In this document: positions 1,978-55,659 of the stretch, piece after piece
How the letters are laid out: each line of letters opens with the position of its first letter
Position numbering within the stretch: position 1 is the stretch's first letter
Assembly: GCA_021927905.1 (NCBI GenBank)
Contig: BLLK01000047.1
Span: 806,001-870,000, forward strand
Length of the DNA: 64,000 nt
Source of the DNA: Chaetoceros tenuissimus
Lineage: Eukaryota > Bacillariophyta > Thalassiosirophyceae > Chaetocerotales > Chaetocerotaceae
Direction: 5' to 3'
The notes under the pieces: model-generated
What the model was told of the DNA's origin: nothing
Seen by the model: only the letters and a program-made list of their open reading frames with translations
Databases searched by the model: none
Position numbers and translations under genes: made by a program

Positions 1978-3471
1978 ATGAAGTTGATTTGTTTGACTAG
2001 TCTCCTTGCATCTGCTGCAGCATTCACCACCAATGGTGCTGCTTTCACCACCCATAGCTACAATGTTGGACAGAGAGTTGCTTCCGAGGGACCTGCTCAC
2101 AGAACCAGAAAGGCTACCATTGTTATGGACGGAAAGGCTAATGGTACGTTGATGTTCCTGGCCTTTGAAGATTTCACGAGATGCATCGAGTCCATGCATG
2201 AATCCATATCAAGAAGAATCAAGATCAAGACAAGAAGTGAAGGCATGGAGTTGGTTCGCACTGCTTCATGACCACTGATGGGTCTGTATGCGTTGAATTA
2301 CAAAAGGGACGGAAAGTATCGAGAAATTCTCAGACCTTCGGCAAAGGAAGGTCTATTAGCTTCCAGAATTCATGAAGTTTTCAAGGTTATGGAGAAATTT
2401 TACATGGCAGAAAAAGACTCAGTAAAAAATGGATTCATGCAACGGACAGTTGAATCTCGTCATAGCATCTGGATGATATGCAATTGCATTCTATTATGTG
2501 TTCAACATCTTTCTCACTTGAATCTTCCTCTTTTTATAGCTATCCGTGACCGTATCTCTTCTGTAAACAACACCAAGAAGATCACCAGTGCTATGAAGCT
2601 TGTAGCTGCTGCTAAGGTACGCCGTGCTCAGGACGCTGTAATTGCTACTCGTCCATTCTCTGAGACTCTTCAATCTGTTTTCGGAGGACTTGTAGAGCGT
2701 ATGGGAGGAGATACCGCTGATATTCCTCTTCTTACCCAGCGTGAGGTTAACAAGGTAACCATCTGCTGTATTACCGGAGACCGTGGACTTTGTGGAGGAT
2801 ACAACTCTTTCATGATCAAGAAGGCTGAGGCTCGTTACAAGGAGCTTAAGGCTGCTGGTGTTGAAGTTGATATGGTACTTGTAGGAAAGAAGGGAATTTC
2901 ATACTTCGAGAACCGTAGCTTCCCAATCCGTAAGACTTTCGAGTGTACCCAAAACCCAGACTCCAAGCAGGCACTTGCTATCTCTGAGGAGCTTCTTAAC
3001 ACTTACCTTGCAGGAGAGACTGATGCAGTTGAGCTTCTTTACACCAAGTTTGTTTCCCTCATTGCTTCCGCTCCAGCTGTACGTACTCTTGTTCCATTCT
3101 CTGCTTCCGAGATCTCTTCTAAGGGAGATGAGGTATTCCAACTCACTTCTTCCGGAGGAGACTTCGATGTAGAGCGTACCGAGCTTGAGGCTGCTGAGCC
3201 ACAAGAGTTCCCAAATGACATGATCTTCGAGCAAGACCCAACCCAGATTGTTAACTCTATTCTTCCACTTTACCTCAATGGACAAATCCTTCGTACTCTT
3301 CAGGAGTCCGTTGCTTCCGAGCTTGCAGCACGTATGCAGGCTATGCAAGCTGCTAGTGATAACGCAAAGTCTCTCGAAAAGGATCTTTCCATGCAATACA
3401 ACAGAGCTCGTCAGGCTGCAGTAACCCAAGAAATTCTAGAGATTGTTTCCGGAGCATCTGCTCTTGAGTAA
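1978..3471 (+). CDS. atpC: ATP synthase gamma chain, chloroplast precursor
   Basis: Exons are 1978-2143 and 2540-3471, with a 396-bp GT-AG intron and an A codon split at the junction. The presequence is a signal peptide with an ASAAAFTT motif. The mature protein starts at AIRDRISSVNNTKKIT, the conserved N-terminal helix of the rotor shaft. It ends with the conserved C-terminal helix (NRARQAAVTQEILEIV). It forms the central stalk of the thylakoid CF1 rotor. The region after VRTLVPFSASEI lacks the nine-residue CDINGKC-type insert with the redox cysteines of land plants and green algae. This rotor therefore should not be thiol-regulated in that way, as known for red-lineage algae. Codon use is strongly biased (CGT, ACC, CTT), typical of very high expression. 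That bias creates a long antisense open frame. Confidence 0.97.
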
Positions 3472-3879: not shown

Positions 3880-5434
3880 TTAGTATACCTCTACATGCCA
3901 TTGCTTGCTCTTCTTCAACCCCTTCAACCACTCATCATAGTCAAGACCCTTTGACTCCGCTACTCCCTTCAACATATCCTGAATTCCTGGCATCATACCC
4001 TTCAATCCGCAAAAGTAAATATGTGCTCCATTGTCAAGCTTGGTAAAAATCTCATCCGCATACTCCTCAACCTTATCTTGAATATACATCTTTCCTCCCT
4101 TCTTGTTCTCCTGCTCACGTGACAATGCATAGTCCAAACGGAAGTTATCTGGATAGTTCTTCTTCACCTCTTGCCACTCATCATCATACAACAATGCATC
4201 ACTGTTCGCTACACCTAGGAACAACCATGCAGTTCCCTCATATGCCTCTCCTGCTGGAGTCTTCTCAGTAAACAAACGACGAATGAAACCACGATATGGT
4301 GCAATTCCTGTTCCTGTAGCTACCATAATCAAATCAGTCTTTGGATCTTCCTCTGGCATCAACATCACCTTCCCTGCTGGTCCAGTCATCTGCACCTCAT
4401 CTCCAGCCTTCGTATCACACAAAAAGTTAGAACATACTCCCTTCTTCGCTGGATCATCGGCCTTCATCTCCGGACACCAGTAAGTCGCACGACGTACACA
4501 CAATGATCCAGTCTTACCACTCATATCATCTCCATAACGTGATGATGCAATTGAATACAAACGGACTGAATGTGGCTTTCCATCCTTCTCACGTACACCT
4601 GGTGGAATCACTCCCCATGATTGTCCCTCCCAATATGGGAAATCTCCCTCATGATCAATCACAATGTGGCAAGTCTCACCAGTTGCCTTTGGTCCTACGA
4701 TACGCTTGGTAGAAACAACCTTACCAGTGAAAGGAGCCTTGTTTTTGTACACATTGACAGGAACGTTGGACTGATCCCAATATGGATCAGCTTCAAGGAA
4801 GTCCTGCTTAGCTGGTGCAGCTACTGATTCTACAGATTGATCACTTACTGCCTTTGGCCAATTTGGATTTTGTTTATATACCTTTGGAGCTGGGGCTGCT
4901 ACAGGTTCAGGTGTACTTTCTCCTCCGAAAATAGCTCCAACCAAAGCAGCAGCGCCAACACCTGCTCCAATTCCTGCTCCGAATTGTTTTGCAGTCTCCA
5001 ACATACAAGTACTAGTCTCTACAACTTCAACAGCCTTTTTTGTCGATGCAAAGGCTGGTGGAACTCCCCCACTCATGAGAGCTGCGGATGCAACTGCTCC
5101 AGCAATCTTTCCAGCATGCTATGAATAGAAATGTGAGTCAGACATCACTACTTCCCAATAGTTTCTGATGATAGAAGACAAATATCTCGATCTTACCTTT
5201 AAAACACGTGCGCGCTTTGATGGTTTTTCTGCTGTCATTGAAAGGGAGACATCTGGTCTAATGGAGATGCAATGTAAGATATGTGGTAAGGTATGTGAGA
5301 AAGATTCAATCCGATGAAAGACATGCCAGAAGATTCCACTGCACTTACCTGCTAGTCTGAGGAACATTAGCAGGAGTGAAGGCAGAGGTAGACACTACCA
5401 AAAGTGCAGAGATTGCAGTAATGAACTTGACCAT
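3880..5434 (-). CDS. petH: Ferredoxin-NADP+ reductase, plastid, copy A
   Basis: Exons run 5434-5349, 5257-5197 and 5118-3880 (introns 91 and 78 bp), giving 461 residues. Order: signal peptide with STSAF motif (1-19); basic transit region; a second hydrophobic stretch ending PPAFA (about 51-74), like a thylakoid-transfer signal; a Gly/Ala-rich membrane span (about 95-116); a Pro/Ala linker (117-150) found only in this copy; then the FNR domain from KQDFLEAD (153). FAD motif RLYSIASS lies near 235-242, NADP motif [10 protein letters not shown] near 318-327, and the terminal WHVEVY carries the aromatic residue stacking on the flavin. It reduces NADP+ with ferredoxin at photosystem I. It is followed by two near-identical paralogues on the same strand. 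Only this copy has the first intron. TGACGT motifs lie 140-150 bp upstream. Confidence 0.96.
5258..5348 (-). other. Copy-specific intron in FNR-A
   Basis: This 91-bp GT-AG intron splits an arginine codon in the transit-peptide region. FNR-B and FNR-C read straight through the same position (QAARGN and HARVNN against QTS-R-PD). The intron was gained in copy A or lost from the other two. Confidence 0.85.
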
Positions 5435-6150
5435 TTTCTTATTGAAACTAGAAAGTCTACTAGCTCTATTTCACAGCTAATAAATAGTGCGTTCCTCCTA
5501 CTAGTAGGTAATAAAAAGATTGTGTAGTGTGTGCTGGCTGTTGTGTGCGAGAGGTATTTTGAGAATGCTATGACGTAGTTGTGACGTTTGCATTCTCTGT
5601 AAAAGGATCGCGCCGGTTCCAACCTCAATTAGCTAAAATAGAAAACTCTCTAATTTCACAGAAAGGAAATTTTATTTCTTTTTGTCAACCAAACTGTTGC
5701 AGTGATAGAAAGGAAACATTTTTAAATCAATAATTTTGGATAAGCGATGGGGATCTCTTTTTTACTATAATGAGAAAAAGTCTTTTTTTAATAAGCGCGA
5801 AGTATTTTCTGTATATTTTTATAACATTCACGCATTGTTTGATATTCTTACAAATTAAAGATTGTAATTGGGCTAACAAGTAATCAATAATTCAACTCTA
5901 TAGAATAGGTTTGATCTCTCTAGCATAAAAGTAATCATCCATTATTAAACTTCCAAAGGAAAAAGAAAACTTTCTTCCTTCCAGTAGCTAAATTTATTGA
6001 ATCGTGGGCTTTGACATGACGAAAAGTATGTGCCATCATCATCAGCAACTTCTTTTTCATCTCACTTTTTCATTTTTCAAGTCAATTTGCATAGATATAT
6101 TACCTTGTCAGATTGCAACTGGAACCCAAACTAACTTATATGATGCAATA
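5435..6150. other. Divergent intergenic region FNR-A / GH43-like gene
   Basis: This AT-rich stretch contains the FNR-A promoter on one side and the GH43-like promoter on the other. An in-frame ATG at 6007-6020 lies upstream of the chosen GH43-like start, but the intervening frame looks like leader rather than protein. No other gene is visible. Confidence 0.5.
5571..5589. promoter_or_regulatory. Two TGACGT motifs upstream of FNR-A
   Basis: TGACGTAG (5571-5578) and TGACGTTT (5582-5589) stand next to each other about 140-155 bp upstream of the FNR-A start codon. TGACGT is the core bound by bZIP factors. In Phaeodactylum a TGACGT element mediates CO2/cAMP response of a carbonic anhydrase promoter. 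Function here is inferred only from the motif and from its recurrence upstream of copies B and C. Confidence 0.45.
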
Positions 6151-7584: not shown

Positions 7585-7857
7585 CCTTTGCAACGATTTC
7601 CATATCTATAAACATATAGAATAAGATAGTCAATAATCCATGAAGATATTTACCATAAATAATTCAAAAGAAAAGGCATTCACAAACAAAACCAATGATA
7701 AGTCGTTTGTAAATTAAAGCAGAATCAAACGAAAAAGAAGTGACCCACTGAATTAAACTAAAATAATCTTATAATTTGTATTTCAAAAGAAACAGAAAGA
7801 ATACAAAATAAGAGGAAGAAAAGTTTATATGCGGCAAAAACTATGGAGCTGCAGAAC
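7585..7857. other. Convergent intergenic region
   Basis: AT-rich 3' flank of the GH43-like gene and of the duplicated FNR-B end. I see no gene here. Confidence 0.5.
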
Positions 7858-8010
7858 TTAGTACACCTCTACATGCCATTGCTTGCTCTTCTTCAATCCC
7901 TTCAACCACTCATCATAGTCAAGACCCTTCGACTCCGCTACTCCCTTCAACATATCCTGAATTCCTGGCATCATTCCCTTCAAACCGCAAAAGTAAATAT
8001 GTGCTCCATT
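7858..8010 (-). pseudogene. Tandem-duplicated 3' fragment of FNR-B
   Basis: This stretch repeats the last 51 codons of FNR, including the stop, in the same orientation as FNR-B. It is followed at once by about 30 bp of shared 3' flank (8011-8040) and then by the real FNR-B end at 8041. The period is 183 bp. The fragment ends abruptly inside the codon run for NGAHIYFCG. It has only a few base differences from the intact copies. It lacks any start or upstream domain and is probably transcribed as part of the FNR-B 3' UTR. Confidence 0.9.
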
Positions 8011-8040
8011 CTCATTATCAAACTACAGAAGCTGCAGAAC

Positions 8041-9424
8041 TTAGTACACCTCCACATGCCATTGCTTGCTCTTCTTCAACCCCTTCAACCACTCATCATA
8101 GTCAAGACCCTTTGACTCCGCTACTCCCTTCAACATATCCTGAATTCCTGGCATCATTCCCTTCAATCCGCAAAAGTAAATATGTGCTCCATTGTCAAGC
8201 TTGGTAAAGATCTCATCCGCATACTCCTCAACCTTATCTTGAATATACATCTTTCCTCCCTTCTTGTTCTCCTGCTCACGTGACAATGCATAGTCCAAAC
8301 GGAAGTTATCTGGATAGTTCTTCTTCACCTCTTGCCACTCATCATCATACAACAATGCATCACTGTTCGCTACTCCTAGGAACAACCATGCAGTTCCCTC
8401 ATATGCCTCTCCTGCTGGAGTCTTCTCAGTAAACAAACGACGAATGAAACCACGATATGGTGCAATTCCTGTTCCTGTAGCTACCATAATCAAATCAGTC
8501 TTTGGATCTTCCTCTGGCATCAACATCACCTTCCCTGCTGGTCCAGTCATCTGTACCTCATCTCCAGCCTTCGTATCACACAAAAAGTTAGAACATACTC
8601 CCTTCTTCGCTGGATCCTCTGCCTTCATCTCCGGACACCAGTAAGTCGCACGACGTACACACAATGATCCAGTCTTACCACTCATATCATCTCCATAACG
8701 TGATGATGCAATTGAATACAAACGTACTGAATGTGGCTTTCCATCCTTCTCACGTACACCTGGTGGAATCACTCCCCATGATTGTCCCTCCCAATATGGG
8801 AAATCTCCCTCATGATCAATCACAATGTGGCAAGTCTCTCCAGTTGCTTTTGGTCCTACAATACGCTTGGTAGAAACAACCTTACCAGTGAAAGGAGCCT
8901 TGTTTTTGTACACATTGACAGGAACGTTGGACTGATCCCAATATGGATCAGCTTCAAGGAAATCCTGCTTAGCTGGTGCAGCTGCACTATCACCTCCGAA
9001 AATAGCTCCAACCAAAGCAGCAGCGCCAACACCTGCTCCGATTCCTGCACCGAATTGCTTTGCAGTCTCCAACATACAAGTACTAGTCTCTACAACTTCA
9101 ACAGCCTTTTTACCCCTTGCCAAAGCTGGTGGAACTCCTCCAGTCATGAGTGCAGCAGAAGCCACAGCTCCTGCAACCTTGCCAAGATGCTTTGAAAGAT
9201 TTTGCATATTAGTTCATCTTCTCTAGCTTTAATAAGGAATAAGTTAAGCAGGAACTTTTCTGTTGAATACTTACCTTAAGTGCACGCTGACGCTTCGAGA
9301 CTGGCTCTTCACTTTTCATGGAAAGAGCAACATTCCCTCTCGCAGCCTGTGGTACAGTTGCTGGACTAAAAGCCGAAGTGGATACCACCAATAGTGTAGA
9401 AATTGCAGTAATAAACTTGACCAT
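8041..9424 (-). CDS. petH: Ferredoxin-NADP+ reductase, plastid, copy B
   Basis: Exons run 9424-9275 and 9189-8041 with an 85-bp intron; the product is 432 residues. Signal peptide with STSAFSP motif, basic transit region ending KRQRALK, then a hydrophobic stretch ending PPALA. Next comes the Gly/Ala-rich span shared with copy A ([19 protein letters not shown]), and then directly the FNR domain from KQDFLEAD. It lacks the 34-residue Pro/Ala linker of copy A. The catalytic domain has [18 protein letters not shown] and the terminal WHVEVY, and differs from copy A by about one residue (KAEDP against KADDP). Most differences from A are single synonymous bases. The intron-exon boundary before HLGKVAG matches the second intron of copy A. 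It is the same enzyme with a slightly different membrane-proximal region. Confidence 0.96.
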
Positions 9425-19533: not shown

Positions 19534-20795
19534 TCATGTAACGACGAAAGGCATCGTTAAGTTCTTTGCATAAAACGGCACCATCGAGATTACTATGCTC
19601 CAGAATACAATTAGTTGTTGCCAATTGCTCTGCAAATGAATCTTGTGGAGCAAGAGGCATGTCTGCAACCACGTGGTGAAGGCAAGATCACAACTTTCTC
19701 CAATCAAGTAGCGCAAGCAGCTAAATTCATGCTTATCTGCAGCATTGTCAGAGCATATTTTATTCCATTCACAACCATGCTCATGAAGATATCGTAAACA
19801 CTCCAGATGTCCTCATCTAGCTGCACACTTGCAGCTATAAGTATTCCATTCGCAACCATGCTCATGCAGATAAACCAAGCACTTCAGATGTCCTCCTTCA
19901 GCTGCGTATCTACAGCTATCAGCATCCCAATCACAACCTTGCTCATGCAGATAAACCAAGCACTTCAGATGTCCTCCTCTAGCTGCACACTCGCAGCTAT
20001 GTATTCCATTCGCAACCATGCTCATGCAGATAAACCAAGCACTTCAGATGTCCTCCTCTAGCTGCACACTCGCAGCTATGTATTCCATTCGCAACCATGC
20101 TCATGCAGATAAACCAAGCACTTCAGATGTCCTCCTCTAGCTGCACACTCGCAGCTATAAACATCCCAACCACAACCTTGCTCATGCAGATAAATCAAGC
20201 ACTCCAGATGTCCTCCTTCAGCTGCGGAACTACAGCTTTGAGTATTCCATTCGCAACCATGGTCATGAAGATATCATAAGCAGTCTAAATGACCTGCACT
20301 TGCTGCATTATAGGAGCATTTCTCCGTGAAAGAACAGCCCTTGCTCTTTAGATATTTGAGCATATTAATTTGATTAGATTTTGCAGCAGCTTCAACATAA
20401 ATCGAAGGCAATTCTTTTTTTACGATAGATTCTTTCAATATAGACTCTTGAAGAAATGCAATATTGCGAAACCTTTCTTCGATGCACAAGTAAATGTTCC
20501 ATTTATACATCGTCCACTTGAATACGTCCAAAGTTCCTGCTAATGAACTTTGGATTCGTAGTTGAATTAAAGAATGATCAATACCAGTAATGCTGTCTCT
20601 CTCTCCACATGGCCTAATAACAAAGGGCTGACATTCTCGTATGAACATCTGAGCACAGGATATGGAAGAAGCCGCGCTTTTTATCCAAGTCTCCTTCCTA
20701 TATCGATATTGTCCTTGTCCAATAAATGAAGCGATCTCTACCAAAGCATCAAATGGAAGTAAGTCTAAACTTGCAATTTGATCTTCGGTATTCAT
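19534..20795 (-). pseudogene. Decayed F-box/ankyrin-like repeat gene
   Basis: The N-terminal 170 codons are open. They start with MNTEDQIASLDLLPFDALVEIASFIGQ, an F-box-like beginning. They lead into the diatom-type ankyrin-like repeat: GHLDCLxYLHExGCxWDxxxCxxAAxG, 27 codons (81 bp) long. From 20276 down to about 19740 there are seven or so repeat units, but the frame is broken. There is a TGA at 20274-20276 where other units have a residue before YLH. Two neighbouring units are 79 instead of 81 bp through the same 2-bp loss, and a GGA-to-TGA change lies near 19812. The last coding segment (GESCDLAFTTWLQTC...) is still open to a stop at 19534. Such repeat proteins are abundant in diatoms and act as binding scaffolds. 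It is most likely no longer functional. Confidence 0.8.
19819..20301 (-). repeat. Tandem 81-bp ankyrin-like repeat array
   Basis: Repeat phases (measured at the agctgc word on the plus strand) lie at 19819, 19900, 19981, 20060, 20139, 20220 and about 20301. Spacings are 81, 81, 79, 79, 81 and 81 bp. The two 79-bp units are practically identical, so the 2-bp loss happened once and the unit then duplicated, or it was spread by conversion. Confidence 0.85.
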
Positions 20796-39538: not shown

Positions 39539-41119
39539 ATGCGAATAACTATCACTAATTGGTACAAGAAGCTAAAGGAAAAGATCCGACAGTCGGGTTT
39601 TCTTGGCTTTGATGAAACGGTGAAAGAGGTCAATCTGAGCAAGAACTATCATCTTTTTCGAACACCGGGACGCAACTCAAACTCAAATCTTCCCGCTTGT
39701 TTGCAAGGTACAGATGATGCGTTTGATAGAGACGCATATTTGGAGGAACTTTGTCCTGAACTTGAAAGAATTGTTACCATACAGAATGAAACGGAAAGAT
39801 GCTGTTATCACAAGATTCAGAATATGATCATTGCCAGAGGAGGCCGGCCAACAACAGAAGAAGAAAAACATTGGATTGAAGATGTCGTGGTAGAGAATGA
39901 ATGGAAATATATTTCAACACAAGAATGGCAAGTAGAGATCCGAGAAAAGTATGGGGATGATTGTGGATTATCTGAAGCAAATGCATATAGAATCGCAACT
40001 TCAGTTTTTGGTCAAGAAACGCTTCGTGAGGTAAAGATGGAAGAGAGAAAATGGATTGAAGATGTTGTGGAAGCAAACAAATCAAAATATATATCACGCA
40101 AAGATTGGCAAGCAAAGATCATAGAGAACTATGGCATGGATTATGCTTTAACTGCTGGAAATGCGTATAGAATCGCAACTAAAGCTTTTGGTCAAAAAAC
40201 CTTTCGCGAGGTGAAGATGGAAGAGAGACAATGGATTGAAGGTATTGTGAAAGCAAACGCAGGGGAACGTATATCATGCAACGAATGGCAAGCAAAGATT
40301 ATCGAGAATTATGGCATGGATTATGCTTTAACTGCTGGAAATGCGTATCAAATGGCACTTAAATCTGGGATGAAGAGACTCCGTGTTCTCGTAACGGATG
40401 ATCATCGTGAATATATCAGCAATAAGGTGGAAGAATTGAATAAAAACAAAGAACAGTGGGGCGAGGAAGAATGGAATGAGGGTATTTGCTCCAAATTCGA
40501 AGAGGATAATAGAATCGCTGGTGTCACAGCATACCAAATTGCACTTGGATGTGGAATGAAGCGAAAATATGCTGAAGTGGATTATGATGGATATATTCAC
40601 AACAAGGTGAAGGAATTGAATAAAAAAAAGGAATATTGGGGAGAGAAAGAATGGAATGATGATATTTGCTCAAAATTCGAAGAGAATGATAGAATCGCGG
40701 GTAGCACAGCATACAAAATTGCACTTAGATACGGAATGAAGCGAAAGCAAAAATATGCTGTTGTAATGGATCATCATCGTGACTTCATCAAGAAGAATGT
40801 TATTGGAACAAAAAAGAGATGGACAAGTGAGAGAGAGTGGCATGATGGTATTTGCTCAAAATTCAAAGAGGATGATAGAATTACTGGGAAAAGGGCACAC
40901 AAAATTGCACTTGAATCCGGTATGCACACAAAGAAGCTCCAGATTTCAATTGATAATTTGACAGCATATAATCCAGACAACATTCCCATGTGCAACTGGT
41001 GTGGGGACTACCGTACAAAACTTCTTGAATGTACAGGTTGTAGATCTGTCAGATACTGCAATCGTGAATGTCAATTTGCTGACTGGGGAGAGCATAAGAA
41101 ATTATTCTCTCACAAATAG
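39539..41119 (+). CDS. Repeat protein with C-terminal MYND-type zinc finger
   Basis: This is an intronless gene of 526 residues from the first ATG. Six internal repeats of about 50-55 residues fill the middle. Three of one kind share the pattern W-I-E-x-(I/V)-V-x-x-N...Y-I-S-x-x-x-W-Q-x-x-I-x-x-x-Y-G-x-D...N-A-Y-R-I-A...F-G. Three of a related kind share the pattern I-x-N-K-V-x-E-L-N-K-x-K-x-x-W-G-E-x-E-W-N-x-x-I-C-S-K-F-E-E...A-Y-x-I-A-L...G-M-K-R. Each looks like a small three-helix unit, perhaps HTH-like, ending before a basic stretch. The C-terminal 45 residues are a MYND finger (CNWCGDYRTKLLECTGCRSVRYCNRECQ...DWGEHK), in which the usual last cysteine is absent (HKKLFSHK). Likely a protein-protein or DNA-binding factor; I do not know the repeat family. 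Confidence 0.75.
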   Translation: MRITITNWYKKLKEKIRQSGFLGFDETVKEVNLSKNYHLFRTPGRNSNSNLPACLQGTDDAFDRDAYLEELCPELERIVTIQNETERCCYHKIQNMIIARGGRPTTEEEKHWIEDVVVENEWKYISTQEWQVEIREKYGDDCGLSEANAYRIATSVFGQETLREVKMEERKWIEDVVEANKSKYISRKDWQAKIIENYGMDYALTAGNAYRIATKAFGQKTFREVKMEERQWIEGIVKANAGERISCNEWQAKIIENYGMDYALTAGNAYQMALKSGMKRLRVLVTDDHREYISNKVEELNKNKEQWGEEEWNEGICSKFEEDNRIAGVTAYQIALGCGMKRKYAEVDYDGYIHNKVKELNKKKEYWGEKEWNDDICSKFEENDRIAGSTAYKIALRYGMKRKQKYAVVMDHHRDFIKKNVIGTKKRWTSEREWHDGICSKFKEDDRITGKRAHKIALESGMHTKKLQISIDNLTAYNPDNIPMCNWCGDYRTKLLECTGCRSVRYCNRECQFADWGEHKKLFSHK

Positions 41120-48385: not shown

Positions 48386-49082
48386 ATATCTACACGCGGA
48401 AAAAACGTTGACCGCGGTCAAAGCTCTGCTCTAGACAAAAAGTGATGACACTACTAACGGACATGGGTAAAATATATGTACAATTGAAAAACAATATTGT
48501 AAAAATACTAAAGCCATAGCATAATCATCTTCTATGTGTTTAAATGTATATCTTTTGTACTGGAACAACATTGAGATTTTGTGTTTTCGATGAGTTACCG
48601 ACATGATAGATGCCGACATTTCTACGTGAATCTGGTGTCCATCTACCGTACAAAGCATACCAGAGAGTTGAGTATTAACAAATGATGAAGAAATAAAAAA
48701 ATCAATATAGTTCCAATACAAAAGATGTATATTTATACACATAGAAGATGGTTGTGCAATGGTTTTGCTATTTTTACAATATTTTTTTCAATTGCATCGA
48801 CAACCTCTACGTGACATCCACCGTACAAACCATACCAGAGGGTTGAGTTTTCAAAAATGGGCAAAAAATGAAAAAATCGCTAATGTTCCAATACAAAACA
48901 TGTGTATTTGTGCGTGTTGAAGATGGTTGTGCTATGGCTTTTTTATTTCTGCAATATTTTTTTTTCATTGTTCGTAGTATTTTGGCTATGTCCGTTAGTA
49001 GTGTGCTTGCTTTCCCAGAGGTGAAAAGGGAAAAGTGGTCAAAGTTTTTCAACTGGTCAACGTTTTTTCCGCGTGTAGATAT
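48386..49082. mobile_element. Non-autonomous terminal-inverted-repeat DNA element
   Basis: The ends are a perfect 28-bp inverted pair at 48386-48413 and 49055-49082 (core tctacacgcggaaaaaacgt). A second inverted pair, cactactaacggacat, lies at 48449-48464 and 48988-49003. The flanks allow a TA target duplication (48387-48388 and 49080-49081), which would fit a Tc1/mariner-type source. Inside, about 150 bp occurs twice in direct order (about 48649-48800 and 48815-48970, sharing tagttccaatacaaaa-like and gaagatggttgtgc segments). It also occurs once inverted (about 48465-48620). There is no transposase gene. The frames inside repeat the same motif and are by-products of the duplication. At about 0.7 kb it is MITE-like. 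Confidence 0.8.
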
Positions 49083-49619
49083 ACCCCCCAGAAATTTTAG
49101 GGGTAAACTTGTCTACGACTACGTATGTACGTACTGCGTACATGATGAAGGACCTACGGTAGTTTGAGGCTACTACTTCTAACAGCTATCTTCAATAGAA
49201 TAAGGCAAGGTAGTATCATTATATAAGAAATTACTTTGCCCACGACGTGTTCACCATTTGGCCAAATTTCAGCTTATCGTTTTGCAACATCATTGGAACA
49301 ACTTCATCATTCTTCATCAGTAAAGAAAGGAAGGGCATGCAGGTGATTGGTCAACTTTAGATTGTTGAAGTTGAAGCAGGAATACTGAGTTTTGTCGTTG
49401 AATGATATTTTTCTGGTAGGTGACGCGCGCTTACCTTGTGGTTAGTTTAAGTTCTTTTTCTTTTTCTTTTTCTACTTCTATACTTCAAAGTGAAAGTGCT
49501 GTGGAAGCCATCCAGGGGTGGTATGCATAAATACTTGGAAGCGTTTTAGTCTGCATACTCCCTTGCTTAAATGTCATCATCATCAACAGCCAAGCATTTA
49601 CTTCTATTGATCATTTCAA
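49083..49619. other. Intergenic region upstream of the HSF gene
   Basis: 537 bp with no supported gene. A ctttttctttttctttttct pyrimidine tract lies near 49454-49474 and may be part of the HSF promoter or leader. Confidence 0.5.
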
Positions 49620-50879
49620 ATGACTGATGAGTACTCAAAAAGTACAAGCAAAATATTATCAAACAAAATCATGTCCAAGTCAGGAGCTATCAAAAGAATA
49701 AATCAAGAGGGTGGGGACAATGATCCCTATGAAGAGATGGTAACCTACATAACTGGGAAACACAAACATGAGCGACTGTCCAAAGAACGTGCCATTCGAT
49801 TTCCTACAAAGGTGAGAAACTTCGAAGAACAAAGACATTCGAATTTCCTTCTTACAATCAGATCACACCCTTACTCTATCTCAACTCCACTTGATTCCAA
49901 TGACATTCAGCTCATGTACGCAGCGGAAGAATGCAGCAATTATAGTCATATCATCAGCTGGAAAATCTTCAAAGATACCGACGAGCATCATCTTGTTATT
50001 ACAGACATTAATGAGTTTACGGAAAAAGTTCTGCCTGCTCTTTTCAAAGTAGCAAAATACGATAGCTTCCAACGCAAACTTTATAGATGGGGATTTGTCA
50101 AGACTCGCAGATCTAAAGTTGAGAAGGAGAAGTATGATCCAAATTCTGCTTCTTACTTTCACAAAAGCTTTCGTAAAGGTGACTACGGTCTTGCTGCACA
50201 GATGACTTGTAGTGGAATGGAAGTAGATTTGTATAAGAAAGAGCAAAAGAACCGCAAGAGAAATCAGCAAAAAGAAGATACTACCAGAACCAGTACTAGT
50301 AATATGGACGAAACAACCGACCTTCAACTTCCAGAGATACCGTTAGCAACTGCGAAAGGCAAGGGTGATATTGAACTCAAAAATATCCATGATTCGCAGT
50401 TCCTACAAGATTTCCCGAATCATGGCAGCTCTGATCATACATTATCGTATGCAAATACCGTGTCTAGTAGTTTGGGACCTAGCAGATATACGTCATTGAC
50501 CATTGCATCGTTATCAGGAGGAGCATCGTATTCAGACAATCATCACTTGCTTCATACTGCTTGTCTTCAGCAAGAAAACCCTGTGTCAGATATGAATATC
50601 ATCAACAATGCTATCACACTTATTGAACAAGAATGTGAGAAAGGTTGCGTGCAAAATGGCTCGATTTCAAGTACTCATGAATTAGATTATGAGGCATTCC
50701 TGAGGATTGAGGACCTTCCTGATTCATCGACCTTGCAACGAAAAGATTGGAACAAACACGCGCGACTAGAAGATGAAGAGTTAGTGTTGTTCCATCAACT
50801 CCAGGGAAACATAGCAAACAGGCAGGTGTTGATTAATGCATTGCTCGAAGACATCTTAGAAGACGCTTTGAAGGATTAA
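49620..50879 (+). CDS. Heat-shock-factor-type transcription factor
   Basis: This is an intronless gene of 419 residues. The DNA-binding domain spans about residues 73-195: SNFLLTIRSHPYSI, CSNYSHIISWKIFKD, ITDINEFTEKVLPALFKVAKYDSFQRKLYRWGFVKT (recognition helix region), then SASYFHKSFRKGDYGLAAQMTC. The FHKSFRKGD element corresponds to the FxHPxFxRG part of HSFs in its diatom version. A basic segment follows (KKEQKNRKRNQQK). There is no clear heptad oligomerisation region, which is common in the large diatom HSF family. The C-terminus is acidic (LLEDILEDALKD), a possible activation region. It should act in the nucleus. Confidence 0.9.
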   Translation: MTDEYSKSTSKILSNKIMSKSGAIKRINQEGGDNDPYEEMVTYITGKHKHERLSKERAIRFPTKVRNFEEQRHSNFLLTIRSHPYSISTPLDSNDIQLMYAAEECSNYSHIISWKIFKDTDEHHLVITDINEFTEKVLPALFKVAKYDSFQRKLYRWGFVKTRRSKVEKEKYDPNSASYFHKSFRKGDYGLAAQMTCSGMEVDLYKKEQKNRKRNQQKEDTTRTSTSNMDETTDLQLPEIPLATAKGKGDIELKNIHDSQFLQDFPNHGSSDHTLSYANTVSSSLGPSRYTSLTIASLSGGASYSDNHHLLHTACLQQENPVSDMNIINNAITLIEQECEKGCVQNGSISSTHELDYEAFLRIEDLPDSSTLQRKDWNKHARLEDEELVLFHQLQGNIANRQVLINALLEDILEDALKD

Positions 50880-50953: not shown

Positions 50954-53064
50954 TTAATTAGTACTATCAAAAGTACCGCTTAAGCAAGCACCTATCACAT
51001 TTCTTACACTGCCATGTGGAGAACTCCCTGGGGAATTATTCGCGCTTTTGAGGTGGTCTCCCCATATTGGCGTATTAACTTGCTGAGTTTGAACAAGTAC
51101 AACGTTGTGATTTGTGGTGTCAAGTTCTTCAGGGTTGCAAACTTTGTGCATACTCTCAGTCCATCCTCCTCCAGTCACTGGCGTGTATTTTATAACAGTG
51201 TGCATCGGCACTTCGATAGATGTACATTCCTTGATTGGCGTCCGACGGAAATAAGCCATAAGAACCTGTAGAGTACTCACATGACTTACTACACATGTCA
51301 TGTTTACTTGCTGTTCCATATCAATGATACAGGTTTCAAGACGATGAATCAAATCAGCGTAACATTCGCCTCCTGGAAATCTTGTAGCAAAAGGATCCTT
51401 TTCAAGCATTGAATACCATTCTGGATCCACATCTTTTACCTCTTCTAATTCCATCCCAGAGTAATCGCCCTTATCGAGTGGATTCAAGTTTGGCAATTCA
51501 TCAATATTAAATGGAAGAGATTGCCACGATGCTGTTTCGACTGCACGAGGCATTGTTGAAGACATTATGTGAATGTTGAAAGGAACTTTCAGATCTGCAT
51601 TTTCAGCATCGGATATTTCATAGTCTGCAAGTCCACTAATTGAAGTTCCTGTCTCTCTTCCATGTCGCGGAGCAAAAGCCATACGCAGAGCATCTTCAGA
51701 CTTCTTTGAAAATCCCTCTCCTTCTTCGGTCATGAATTTCTCCAATGCTTCTCTGAAATGTTTACCCCTTGGTCCCAATTTGTCACCTCTTGTGATCTTT
51801 CTTGGCTTTGTTGGATCTTCTTCATGTGCCGAACCTATAGTTTCTCCCGCACGAATTAGATAAATCGGTCTTGCTCCAATATTCCAACTCATTAAACAAG
51901 GTACAATTACCTTAGCCATCCTTCCGTAAATATTGGTGGTTAGCAATTTTGAGGATTAATTAAAAATCTTGATGTAACATTGTGTATCATCTTCGATTGT
52001 CTCATACGCAGCTTCATACTTTCCAACTCTTACCTGCCATAGATGTGGTTAACGAGCAGCTTTGAAGAAAGATTGAAAATCTTTATGTAGGATTGTGTAT
52101 CGTCATCTATAGTCTCATACGCTTCTTCATATTTTCTGACACGCTTTCTCAAATCAGCAATAGCTTCTTCTTGCGTCATGTTTGCAAAATCAGGCGAATT
52201 TTTAACTTTGAATGCAAAATTTTCTTCTAGCAACTCCTCATCATCGCAAATACTCTCAACAAAGACACAACCAGTTTTCTTTCCAGCTCTTTTTTCGGGG
52301 GATGTAGCCTCTTCAAGAACCCATTTCCTGCGCTCGACAGTCGAGTTTGTAGCGTCGAAAATTGCAATACGACTTGAAACAATACTAGCTTTGGCAGCAA
52401 TCTGCTCTACAGTGGTCAACCCTTTCATCGTTTCCTCTATAGGTTTTTCATAGTCTAACCAAGCCAACATATCTTTCATTGCAAGTTCAGCACTTCTCTG
52501 TCTCATCTGCTGCGCCTTCGGATTTTTGCTATCAAAGAAATCAGCATCACAAGCACCAACTTTCTGTCTTAAATCGTTTGCTTCTTCTGCCTCTGCAAGT
52601 TCAGCTTCCTTTTGTACTTGTCTTCTATATTTTCCTACATTAAACACCTTACATTCATTTCCACGCCACGTGAGGAACGATTGAAGCTTGCGTGCAATGA
52701 AACTTTTGCCTCTTCCTGGCAATCCAACCAAAACAAGAACAAGTCTTTCGGATGAACCTGTTAAATTGCGTCTCTAAACAAAGAAAGATTTGTGAGTCGT
52801 GAATATTTCATAGGTGATTGTGTATATGAATATGGTAGATCCTTCTGAAATATGCCATGGACACGAAGAAACCTTATTCTTTTACAAATATTTTCTTTCC
52901 AAGGGATGCATGAAGAATCAGAGGCCCAATCATCCTTTCCCTATATGTAACTCGTTTCTCGCATCACATACCTGAGCTAGCTTCTTTAATGTCACAGCAG
53001 AAACCTCTGTAACCTGGGTAGAACCCTTCTCATAATAATCTTTTGGTACTTTAGTGTCGGCCAT
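50954..53064 (-). CDS. 6-phosphofructo-2-kinase/fructose-2,6-bisphosphatase-like
   Basis: Exons run 53064-52972, 52773-52034 and 51920-50954 (introns 198 and 113 bp); the product is 599 residues. The kinase half has a Walker A motif GLPGRGKS (48-55), CKVFNVGKYRR, DATNSTVERR and CDDEELLEEN...SPDFANMTQEEAIADLRKRVRKYEEAYE. These are all typical of PFK-2. The phosphatase half begins at ARPIYLIRAGET. The family's catalytic RHGE is here RAGE (Ala at about 302), so the phosphohistidine cannot form; the second histidine (VVSHVSTL) remains. The protein is therefore probably a kinase making fructose-2,6-bisphosphate, with an inactive regulatory phosphatase fold. The second intron is exactly one duplicated copy of the end of exon 2. 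The cytosolic role is control of glycolysis and gluconeogenesis. Confidence 0.93.
51921..52146 (-). repeat. 113-bp tandem duplication that forms PFKFB intron 2
   Basis: Copy 1 is the last 113 bp or so of exon 2 (52034-52146, ending HIYG at a GGCAG/GTAAGA boundary). Copy 2 is the intron itself (51921-52033), reading AAYETIEDDTQCYIKIFN then a stop, then SSKLLTTNIYG. Equivalent points (gtctcatacgc at 52112 and 51999) are 113 bp apart. The intron is 113 bp long. The copies differ by roughly one base in six. Confidence 0.9.
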
Positions 53065-53652
53065 GATCCAAAAATGATAGGAATGTGTTTGGTTCAAGCT
53101 CTTCTTGTTCTAAAAGGAATATTGAATCTTTCTTCTTTCTTCCGAGACTTTATGTGAAGGAGTGGAAGAATGGAAGCCATTCAAACGCACGAAGTGGTAC
53201 TGGAATCAAAATCATAACAACTAAAAAACGCTTTTTGGCGCGCTTTTTTGAGATGGGAGTAAAAATATGAAGCACCCGGAGATTGCTACCGCACTACTGA
53301 ACAGGTGCGCGTACGGGTGCCTGACGGACTTATTGAAAATATGCATACTGCTTGAGTACATGCAGATCATCTTCTTTCGGACTTTCTCCTCGTTAGACAA
53401 TCAAGTGAGACTAAATTTAAATCTTGACAGGATGAAATTTGCACACATGGAAGGGTCATCGTCTTTGAATTTGCAGTTCTCGCCGTCGCAGTGTGCAATC
53501 TGTAGTGTTAAAAGAAGCAGCAGCCACACCACCTTTGATAGGGATTCATCAAACACTCTGAGACACTAATTGCACTTTATTTTTTCGCCTTTCCTACCAA
53601 CCACGAAGTCATCTGGTATTTCCAAACCATCTTGAAATACTAGCAGAATATA
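53065..53652. other. Divergent intergenic region
   Basis: 588 bp between PFKFB and the FG-GAP gene. The plus-strand open frame at 53267-53569 shows no domain. It could hide an upstream exon for the FG-GAP protein, which lacks a visible signal peptide. Several gcgc and ttttttgagatgg-like words lie near 53236-53260 without clear meaning. Confidence 0.4.
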
Positions 53653-55659
53653 ATGTTGAAGAGATCCCTTTTCACTCCTGGACATAGTACCAGGAGGAAT
53701 CTATTGGACTCCAAAGAATTGGTCTGGAATGCGACACATGCTTATGAGTTCGAATTGTATGAGGCCACAATGGAAGGTACAGATCAATACGATTATTTCG
53801 GTTCAGCTGTGGCAATGTCAGGGGATGGAAGCCGTGTAGCAGTAGGCAGTGACGGCAAGTATGGTTACAATGGAGCAGTGTTGATCTACGAACACGATGA
53901 TAATCTAGGGTCTTTCACTCAGCTTGGCCCTACCATCCGGGGTGAATTCAACGGAGGCTTTGCTTCATCCCTCGACCTTTCTCATGATGGCAATACCCTT
54001 GTTGTAGGTGCACCTGATGGACACGAAAATAAGGGCTGCGTTACAGTTTACAAATTTGATGCTGTATGGAAGAAAATGGGCGATGAAATTGTTGGGCATA
54101 TCAAAAGTGCTCATGCTGGACACAGTGTTTCCATTTCTGGCGATGGTTCAACAATTGCTTATGGGTCACCATATGCACTTGATGGCTTTGGTAATATTAG
54201 AGTCATGACATTTGACAGTTCCAAGAATACCTGGAATCTAGACTTTTCCCTTGATGGAACTGAAAAAACGTTTCTTGGCGGGTCAATATCTTTGAATTTT
54301 GCAGGAGATCGTTTGGTGGCAGGCGCACGTCTAATGACACCTGTCATTGGAGGGAAGCCTTATGAACATGCTGGAGGCTTTGAGGTTTTTGACTTGATTA
54401 ATCAATCATGGAAAAAGAATGGGAAAACTATACATGGTGACCAAAGTTATGGACGCTTGGGACACGCTATTGATTGTTCCTATGATGGTCAAAGAATTAT
54501 TGCTGGGGCCTTTACTAGTCATGAAGGTACAGGAGCAGTATATGTTTTCCAAGAAGACCAAAGTAATGACAATGGATGGTCTTTACTTGGGCAAGTCATA
54601 CAGGGTGAAGAAGAGCATGATCAGTTAGGTAGCGCAGTGAGCATTTCGGGCACTGGATCGATAATTGCAATTGGAGCTCCAGATAACAATGATATAAGCC
54701 CAAATGGTGGCGAGGTAAAAATTTATCACTTTGATGAATCAGAAAATCTCTGGGAAGAAGTTGAGATCAATATATCTGGATATGATATCGGCGATGATAA
54801 TAAGAACTTTGGAGATGCTATTGGCCTCAATGAGCATGGCGACCATATGATAATTGGATCGCAAATGGGAAATTACTACAAAGGTGTTGTCCAAATATAT
54901 AGGGCTGTAAGATCTACTAGTCACAAACAAAAGAATCCCTTACACATCAATGAATTGAATGGAAGTGACATAACCAGTGTGTCAATTGGTGCTCTATTTA
55001 TTATAACAGTTACGATGTTACTCGGCTTGAGAATGCACAAAAGAAAAAAAACGGAGAAAATTAAGGAAAGTAGATCTGAAAATATTTTAAAGTATATCGA
55101 CGAGAGCTTCGATGACACGAAAGGTGCCAAACACACAGTATATGTCCGTAAAAGTTCGACAGCGGGAGTACAAGCTGTGTACGCTCCTTCCGATCAATAC
55201 AAGACAGCAACTGCTTTGGCTGATTCATGGAGACTTCAAGACGATGTTTCCATTAGACCCAGAACAGCTCCAGTTAGTAGGCATTTATCACACACATCAC
55301 GAAGTACTCGTACTGTAGACGATGATATTTCTGAGATCTTCGGTGAAGTGCAAATGTATGGCTCAGATGATCATCGATTATCTGCTATGTCCATGGGTTC
55401 TTCAAGATCCCTTGCATCGAGACAAGAGCTTGCTAGGTCTGATTCACGGAGGCAGCAATTTCGTGCGAGATCAGGTCTCGACCTCCTCGAAGAAGAGGAA
55501 GATCTTAGTATTGCAGAGAGTCAGCCACATACAAATGACGATGATGATAGCAGATTAAGTTACGAGTCTGATTTGCCATCGCAAAAATCAAAACCAAAGT
55601 CAAACTATTACACAAAATGGTATGGAGACGATGAGTCTACTACAGGGAAAATAGTGTAG
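53653..55659 (+). CDS. FG-GAP (integrin-alpha-like) beta-propeller membrane protein
   Basis: This is an intronless gene of 668 residues. Seven FG-GAP-like blades (about 45-425) have the pattern (F/L)G-x-(A/S)-(V/I)-x-(M/L/I)-S-x-D-G-x-x-(V/I)-A-(V/I)-G. Examples are YFGSAVAMSGDGSRVAVGS, HSVSISGDGSTIAYGSP and QLGSAVSISGTGSIIAIGAP. One membrane span follows (SVSIGALFIITVTMLLGL, about 438-455), with stop-transfer RMHKRKK. The 200-residue Ser/Arg/Asp-rich tail is cytosolic. FG-GAP propellers bind extracellular ligands or matrix. No signal peptide is visible at this start (MLKRSLFTPGHSTRRN), so an upstream exon may be missing. Likely a surface adhesion or receptor-like protein. Confidence 0.8.
   Translation: MLKRSLFTPGHSTRRNLLDSKELVWNATHAYEFELYEATMEGTDQYDYFGSAVAMSGDGSRVAVGSDGKYGYNGAVLIYEHDDNLGSFTQLGPTIRGEFNGGFASSLDLSHDGNTLVVGAPDGHENKGCVTVYKFDAVWKKMGDEIVGHIKSAHAGHSVSISGDGSTIAYGSPYALDGFGNIRVMTFDSSKNTWNLDFSLDGTEKTFLGGSISLNFAGDRLVAGARLMTPVIGGKPYEHAGGFEVFDLINQSWKKNGKTIHGDQSYGRLGHAIDCSYDGQRIIAGAFTSHEGTGAVYVFQEDQSNDNGWSLLGQVIQGEEEHDQLGSAVSISGTGSIIAIGAPDNNDISPNGGEVKIYHFDESENLWEEVEINISGYDIGDDNKNFGDAIGLNEHGDHMIIGSQMGNYYKGVVQIYRAVRSTSHKQKNPLHINELNGSDITSVSIGALFIITVTMLLGLRMHKRKKTEKIKESRSENILKYIDESFDDTKGAKHTVYVRKSSTAGVQAVYAPSDQYKTATALADSWRLQDDVSIRPRTAPVSRHLSHTSRSTRTVDDDISEIFGEVQMYGSDDHRLSAMSMGSSRSLASRQELARSDSRRQQFRARSGLDLLEEEEDLSIAESQPHTNDDDDSRLSYESDLPSQKSKPKSNYYTKWYGDDESTTGKIV

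Follow-up and report, generated by a model that had tools for sequence, protein, structure and literature searches.

Introduction

In the passages drawn on here, the review PMC3443670 distinguishes seven mechanisms of intron gain and, as of 2012, counts 188 events of tandem duplication, 5 of break repair and 3 of intron transfer; evidence for break repair consists there (2012) in resemblance to mitochondrial, not to nuclear DNA. Genes with paralogues are reported in the same passages to gain introns more often, a trend tied to intron transfer. A variant of the duplication model is treated in a part of PMC4974935, where the cases of ATP2A1 and of the potato RdRp are recounted. For most newly gained introns the source is untraced, according to excerpts of PMC4974935 and PMC4202315.

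The case described here is intron 2 of a PFKFB gene (the W gene) in the window, i.e., the whole stretch of 64,000 nucleotides of DNA that was analysed. P44 denotes its paralogue on contig C44, and P34b a third PFKFB gene on contig C34. With a probability of about 0.78, intron 2 would be a recently gained spliceosomal intron built from the coding sequence of a paralogue, inserted beside the homologous resident segment.

Like the tandem-duplication introns of ATP2A1 and the potato RdRp (as recounted in the cited part of PMC4974935), it lies at a coding segment duplicated in register, has a length equal to the repeat period and leaves the protein unchanged. Unlike introns of the Rogers model of tandem duplication, it has a second copy whose source is a diverged paralogue on a different contig, not the adjacent resident segment; the W gene had no AGGT to duplicate, and the donor would be new at the joint. 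As in break repair (cited passages of PMC3443670), foreign DNA entered an exon and would then be spliced out, and the identifiable genomic source by which such introns are recognised is here an exon segment of P44 (C44:1117655-1117743); unlike in the break-repair introns described there, the filler is the exon of a nuclear paralogue, inserted at its homologous place. The likeness to intron transfer (Chironomus globins; mechanism as defined in the cited passages of PMC3443670) is that sequence exchange between paralogues gives an intron, whereas the donor P44 has no intron at the site, and exon sequence became intron. Recent gain is shared with introners and transposon-derived introns (cited part of PMC9860276), but intron 2, unlike introners, matches only itself and P44 in a search with very common words skipped.

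The case thus combines the geometry of tandem duplication, an origin from foreign filler and an intron-free paralogue as donor, and it stands between tandem-duplication and repair-insertion intron gain. It is a rare case of a new intron with a traceable source that is not the neighbouring exon, a repeated element or known organelle DNA, and donor gene, recipient gene and an intron-free orthologue protein are all identified. In the open-licence papers that were searched, no intron derived from the exon of a paralogue was found, which is no proof of priority.

Gene structure

The W gene, on the minus strand, has three exons (Table 1), which encode a PFKFB (6-phosphofructo-2-kinase / histidine phosphatase) of 599 residues. 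Both the 6PF2K and the histidine-phosphatase domain are present (Pfam PF01591 and PF00300), and the best PDB match of the protein is PFKFB3 (E 5.2e-58). The arrangement of exon 1 and intron 1 is also found in P44. The G+C content of the window is 38-42% (4-kb steps).

Table 1. Features of the W gene and of its second intron (window positions; a slash marks a splice boundary)
Feature	Coordinates	Strand	Remarks
Exon 1 (ATG ... LKKLAQ)	52972..53064	-	Open frame, then CAG/GTATGT
Intron 1, 198 bp	52774..52971	-	Position common to W and paralogue P44
Exon 2, 6-phosphofructo-2-kinase domain	52034..52773	-	Pfam PF01591, E 2e-55, on exon-2 frame
Resident copy (copy 1), final 113 nt of exon 2, still coding	52034..52146	-	
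Intron 2, 113 bp, predicted to be newly gained	51921..52033	-	GTAAGA...CGGAAG/GATGG
Intron 2 nt 4-92, P44-like segment	51942..52030	-	84/89 vs P44 exon, G000:C44:1117655-1117743
5' splice site GTAAGA at putative resident/P44 joint	52028..52033	-	Retention gives AGG TAA stop
CTAAC, branch-point-like motif; putative branch role	51939..51943	-	Second A 19 nt before last base of intron
Intron 2 tail with acceptor AG at end	51921..51941	-	Resident and P44 tails fit equally, score 8.0 each
Exon 3, histidine phosphatase domain	50954..51920	-	Pfam PF00300 (His_Phos_1), E 1.6e-18, on exon-3 frame

Tandem copies and the source of intron 2

Direct repeats in the W gene extend over 51920-52023 and 52033-52136, with a spacing of exactly 113 bp and 74% identity over 104 nt; this pair was the sole direct repeat family found by a repeat search of 51500-52600. 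An earlier note, made from the window alone, had read the locus as a recent intron gain through duplication of the AGGT-containing end of the gene's own exon. Recent gain at a duplicated exon segment stands, and the gene's own AGGT-containing exon end as source does not. The intron does have the length of the repeat period (113 = 113), and the in-frame stop claimed for the duplicated copy is confirmed (TAA). A divergence of one difference per six bases was too low an estimate, since intron 2 and copy 1 agree without gaps at 79/113 positions over their full length, or about one difference per 3.3 bases. Derivation of the donor from an AGGT-type site in copy 1 is contradicted by AAGCGT, which stands at that offset of copy 1, and AGGT is absent from the places in the resident copy and in P44 that correspond to the splice points. 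P44 has TCTAGA at the place equivalent to the donor and GGGCGCATGG at that equivalent to the acceptor.

The genome searched (G000) comprises 41,027,912 bases in 68 contigs, and the window sits on C34 (4,456,483 bases). A family search yielded five matches at three PFKFB loci, namely W, P44 on C44 and P34b on C34. Intron 1 is common to P44 and W, and one P44 open frame of 529 codons runs through the intron 2 site. A whole-genome search with intron 2 alone, which skips very common words, returned two places, the intron itself and the P44 exon (nt 4-92, 94%, E 6.7e-33). Compared with P44, copy 1 is 81% identical over 99 nt, exon 2 71% and exon 3 75-78%.

Within nt 4-92, intron 2 agrees with P44 at 84/89 positions and with copy 1 at 68/89, against 70/89 between copy 1 and P44, so that the adjacent exon named in the earlier note is the more distant of the two. 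Among the 22 variable sites of this segment, 17 are shared by the intron and P44 only, three by copy 1 and P44 and one by the intron and copy 1; at the remaining one all three differ. Over all 113 nt the informative sites divide into 19 for P44 and 3 for copy 1 (sign test, p 0.0004); outside the P44-like tract, nt 93-113 give two sites each way and nt 1-3 none. In the first 28 codons, a single third position separates the intron from P44, whereas copy 1 differs at 13 third positions from the intron and at 13 from P44. For comparison, identity in the codon alignment of W and P44, cut into 530 overlapping windows of 90 nt, had a maximum of 85.6% and a median of 72%, and third-position identity per 28 codons peaked at 22 in this W-P44 control, compared with 27 between intron and P44. 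Because of these identities, the split of the sites, the third positions and the 530-window control, P44 or a close allele is the predicted source of intron 2, with no role for the resident exon as template.

The first 3 and last 21 nt of the intron match both parents poorly, so that the joints of the insert are approximate. In tail alignments the resident gene and P44 score 8.0 each, and 76 and 85 of 2000 shuffles, respectively, were as good; as for the short end repeats expected of gap filling in break repair, the tail motif TAACCAC aligns with the resident tail only via a 4-nt gap, with 76/2000 shuffles scoring equally. The flanks of the insert are of the W type. In the tree, W joins P0001, its closest listed orthologue, at 100/100 support, and P44 groups with P0018, likewise at 100/100, on a separate long branch. 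With P44 intact and the flanks of W type, parsimony applied to the ingroup DNA argues for the direction from P44 to W.

Several other classes of event were considered and rejected. A transposon or introner is opposed by the genome search (skipping common words), in which intron 2 matches just itself and P44. A chimeric gene formed by crossing-over with P44 does not agree with exon 3, which is of the W type (75-78% identity with P44; 307/321 amino acids shared with P0001), and transfer of an existing intron from the paralogue does not agree with P44, which has none at the site. As a mutually exclusive exon the second copy is unsuitable: it carries a stop and, by eye, has no flanking splice sites of its own.

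Predicted splicing and origin of the splice sites

Joining exons 2 and 3 gives an open frame of 1704 nt, compared with 0 nt across the 5' junction and 999 nt across the 3' junction in unspliced form. GT-AG ends and frame rescue, as expected of a spliceosomal intron, are both present in intron 2. The predicted spliced junction is ...ATGGCAG joined to GATGGCTAAG, corresponding to ...NHIYGR/MAKVIV... in the protein, and the spliced W protein is collinear with P0001, gap-free at the intron 2 site. Splicing is thus predicted from the exact frame rescue, the GTAAGA donor and a CTAAC motif 19 nt before the last intron base. CTAAC occurs once in intron 2, at a place occupied by CTTGT in P44 and by CTCGT in copy 1; as a putative branch site it is only suggestive, a CTRAY match somewhere in a stretch of this kind being expected by chance at about 1/16 (hand estimate, equal base frequencies). 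Read past the donor, the exon-2 frame stops immediately (AGG TAA; stop at 52030), so that retention of the intron would cut the protein short at 278 residues, close to where the kinase domain ends. Because of this immediate stop, unspliced W RNA would give at best a kinase-only protein, or would be degraded.

The donor-side joint of W reads ...TATGGCAG/GTAAGAGTTGG... At this place W without the insert would read GGCAG/GATGG, and P44 reads TCTAGAGTTG. Given these two sequences, the GTAAGA donor is predicted to be new at a chimeric joint, with CAGG contributed by the resident exon and AGAGTTG by P44. The donor of P44 intron 1 is GTAAGA too. At the right end of the insert, AG/GATGG belongs to the resident gene, whereas P44 has its own sequence there (given above).

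Proposed origin and alternative explanations

In the proposed sequence of events, the W gene would have been broken just after ...GGCAGG, and its left end would have been connected to P44 in a non-homologous first joint, at a place some 110 bp upstream of the homologous position. Roughly 90-110 bp of P44 (or a close allele) would have been copied into W at the homologous position, and the product would have returned to the resident gene through homology in the short tail. The chimeric joint would yield the strong donor CAG/GTAAGA, and the right end would contribute AG/GATGG; splicing between the two would take out exactly the inserted length and bring back the ancestral protein. Copying of P44 during break repair would be the most economical path.

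Formation in two steps, with tandem duplication of the gene's own exon end first and later overwriting of the second copy by gene conversion from P44, is unlikely. It would explain copies in perfect register with the resident exon, and a conversion tract would stop ahead of the last 21 nt, whose likeness to P44 is not clear; however, it requires that two rare events struck the same ~110 bp, and the outer parts of the insert are no closer to copy 1 than to P44 (two sites each way, equal tail scores). Other conversion-like stretches between the coding sequences of W and P44 are absent as well, the best 90-nt window being the one at 85.6%.

Insertion of a reverse-transcribed piece of P44 mRNA, instead of P44 DNA, appears improbable. 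The source lies within one P44 exon, so that RNA and DNA templates look alike, but the insert contains no poly(A) stretch and is accompanied by no clear target-site duplication, the 7-nt TAACCAC tail match needing its 4-nt gap.

It is quite improbable that the 113 bp are not an intron and represent either an insertion that made a young pseudogene or an assembly error. Although the unspliced reading stops at once, P44 reads joined in error should match P44 completely and not at 84/89, and a misjoin would not be expected to place GTAAGA and AG at the exact protein-restoring spots. A pseudogene is opposed by exon 3, which is still open and 307/321 identical to P0001.

A model in which an AGGT-containing piece of exon 2 was simply duplicated in tandem within the gene and then diverged matches the intron length and the exactly restored protein but is scarcely credible, since nt 4-92 share 17 sites with P44 only and one with the resident copy only, a single third-position difference from P44 in 28 codons would demand synonymous convergence that is not believable, and AGGT is absent at the donor-equivalent place of copy 1 (AAGCGT) and at the corresponding places of P44.

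As an intron built from P44 illustrates, a seemingly textbook tandem-duplication intron may prove otherwise after a check of the paralogues; published tandem-duplication introns in gene families therefore deserve such a check. The predicted class consists of introns that are closer to a paralogue's exon than to their own neighbour. Paralogue-templated break repair, in which a sister exon is copied ectopically beside its homologue, may tentatively be considered as a general route of intron birth, though a doubtful one. If true, the diverged tandem pair would already be too different for easy recombinational loss, the chimeric joint would supply new splice sites, and the more frequent gain of introns in genes with paralogues would have a further explanation.

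Orthologues and probable timing of the gain

P0001 is a protein of 555 residues from a contig of 5839 bp. It shows 96% identity to W (534/554 aligned residues; 227/233 in the exon 2 part and 307/321 in the exon 3 part), with zero amino-acid differences in copy 1. Its frame is uninterrupted through the intron 2 site, and its start corresponds to a TTG inside W exon 2 (L46M). As a prokaryotic gene caller would start at that TTG with intron 1 present, the P0001 contig is probably genomic DNA that still has intron 1, judged from start codon and length. P0018, which differs from P44 by one residue besides the start, likewise reads through the site. The intron is thus absent from P44 and from the P0001 and P0018 reading frames.

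The protein searches list 120 of 852, 120 of 640 and 120 of 327 matches. Of 242 proteins compared, 216 align across the junction, many of which may be transcripts or spliced predictions, so that absence of the intron is testable just from those on long contigs; one of the 216 (P0145) has extra residues there, which seem to reflect a frame that enters an intron a few codons later. A query for the intron-bearing form (the exon-2 frame up to the donor stop) found nothing closer than 71% among the 120 of 327 matches listed; intron-bearing fragments could sit hidden as members of the P0001 cluster. In viral contigs there were four pattern matches, none of which was confirmed as a relative by tblastn.

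Since P0001 has a frame that lacks the intron and is 96% identical to W, and in view of the tree, the gain of intron 2 most likely postdates the split of W and P0001. A recent gain agrees with the five differences in 89 bases between the intron and P44, and the intron could even be polymorphic. NG86 dS (codon model) was 1.63 for residues 32-240 and saturated in the other two segments.

Search for similar cases

Direct repeats with offsets of 45-600 were scanned in the window and in C34:1-200000, together 264 kb (0.26 of 41 Mb); such a scan is blind to introns with a dissimilar neighbour, and a single case gives no frequency. It returned 23 clusters, six in the window and 17 in C34:1-200000. 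Among the 22 clusters other than that of intron 2, five had GT...AG at the repeat period and a spliced frame of >400 nt. Three of these (window 39860-40933, C34:79874-80441 and C34:123796-127223) were rejected as introns, the unspliced frame being as long or longer. C34:3386-3732 has 642 nt spliced vs 174 and 708 nt unspliced. C34:41694-46816 (+ strand; 1137 nt spliced vs 453 and 795 nt unspliced) was rejected as an array inside an open frame of 1833 codons on the other strand.

The window also contains two-copy direct repeats at 7847-8197 (period 183, 97%; lacking period-spaced splice sites that give a long frame) and at 48640-48963 (period 175, 81%; splicing rescues no frame), and an array of ~80-bp units at 19761-20307. 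The ~180-bp repeats at 39860-40933 lie in a frame of at least 1749 nt and probably belong to a repeat protein.

Paralogue P34b, phosphatase site and gene neighbours

P34b (C34:3001811) has an intron of 83 bp, CTCAAG/GTATGT...TCATAG/GTT, at LK/VVHF (L006 reverse complement 3185-3267). It was rejected as an intron at the same position as W intron 2, lying by eye some three codons further downstream. Because it sits only a few codons from the W site, the PFKFB stretch around this site may take up introns repeatedly.

In the phosphatase domain (Table 1), W has YLIRAGET where PFKFB3 has YLCRHGEN, with Ala in place of the catalytic His; the catalytic phosphohistidine of the bisphosphatase is therefore missing (RAGET aligned to RHGEN), which bears on the enzyme and not on intron 2. 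RAGE or RAGQ is found in P44 and in 11/11 relatives whose sequences were inspected, and the distant paralogue P34b keeps RHGQ. This pattern suggests that kinase-only enzymes occur in this group of diatoms.

Downstream of the W gene lies a gene of the HSF-type DNA-binding family (window 49611-50879, + strand), and an FG-GAP-repeat gene adjoins W on its other side (window 53644-55659, + strand). By eye, a similar-looking frame is found next to P44 (L007 reverse complement 4495-6000), in an orientation that differs from that of the FG-GAP neighbour of W. The FG-GAP-like neighbours of the two genes may reflect chance in a large family or the trace of a segmental duplication.
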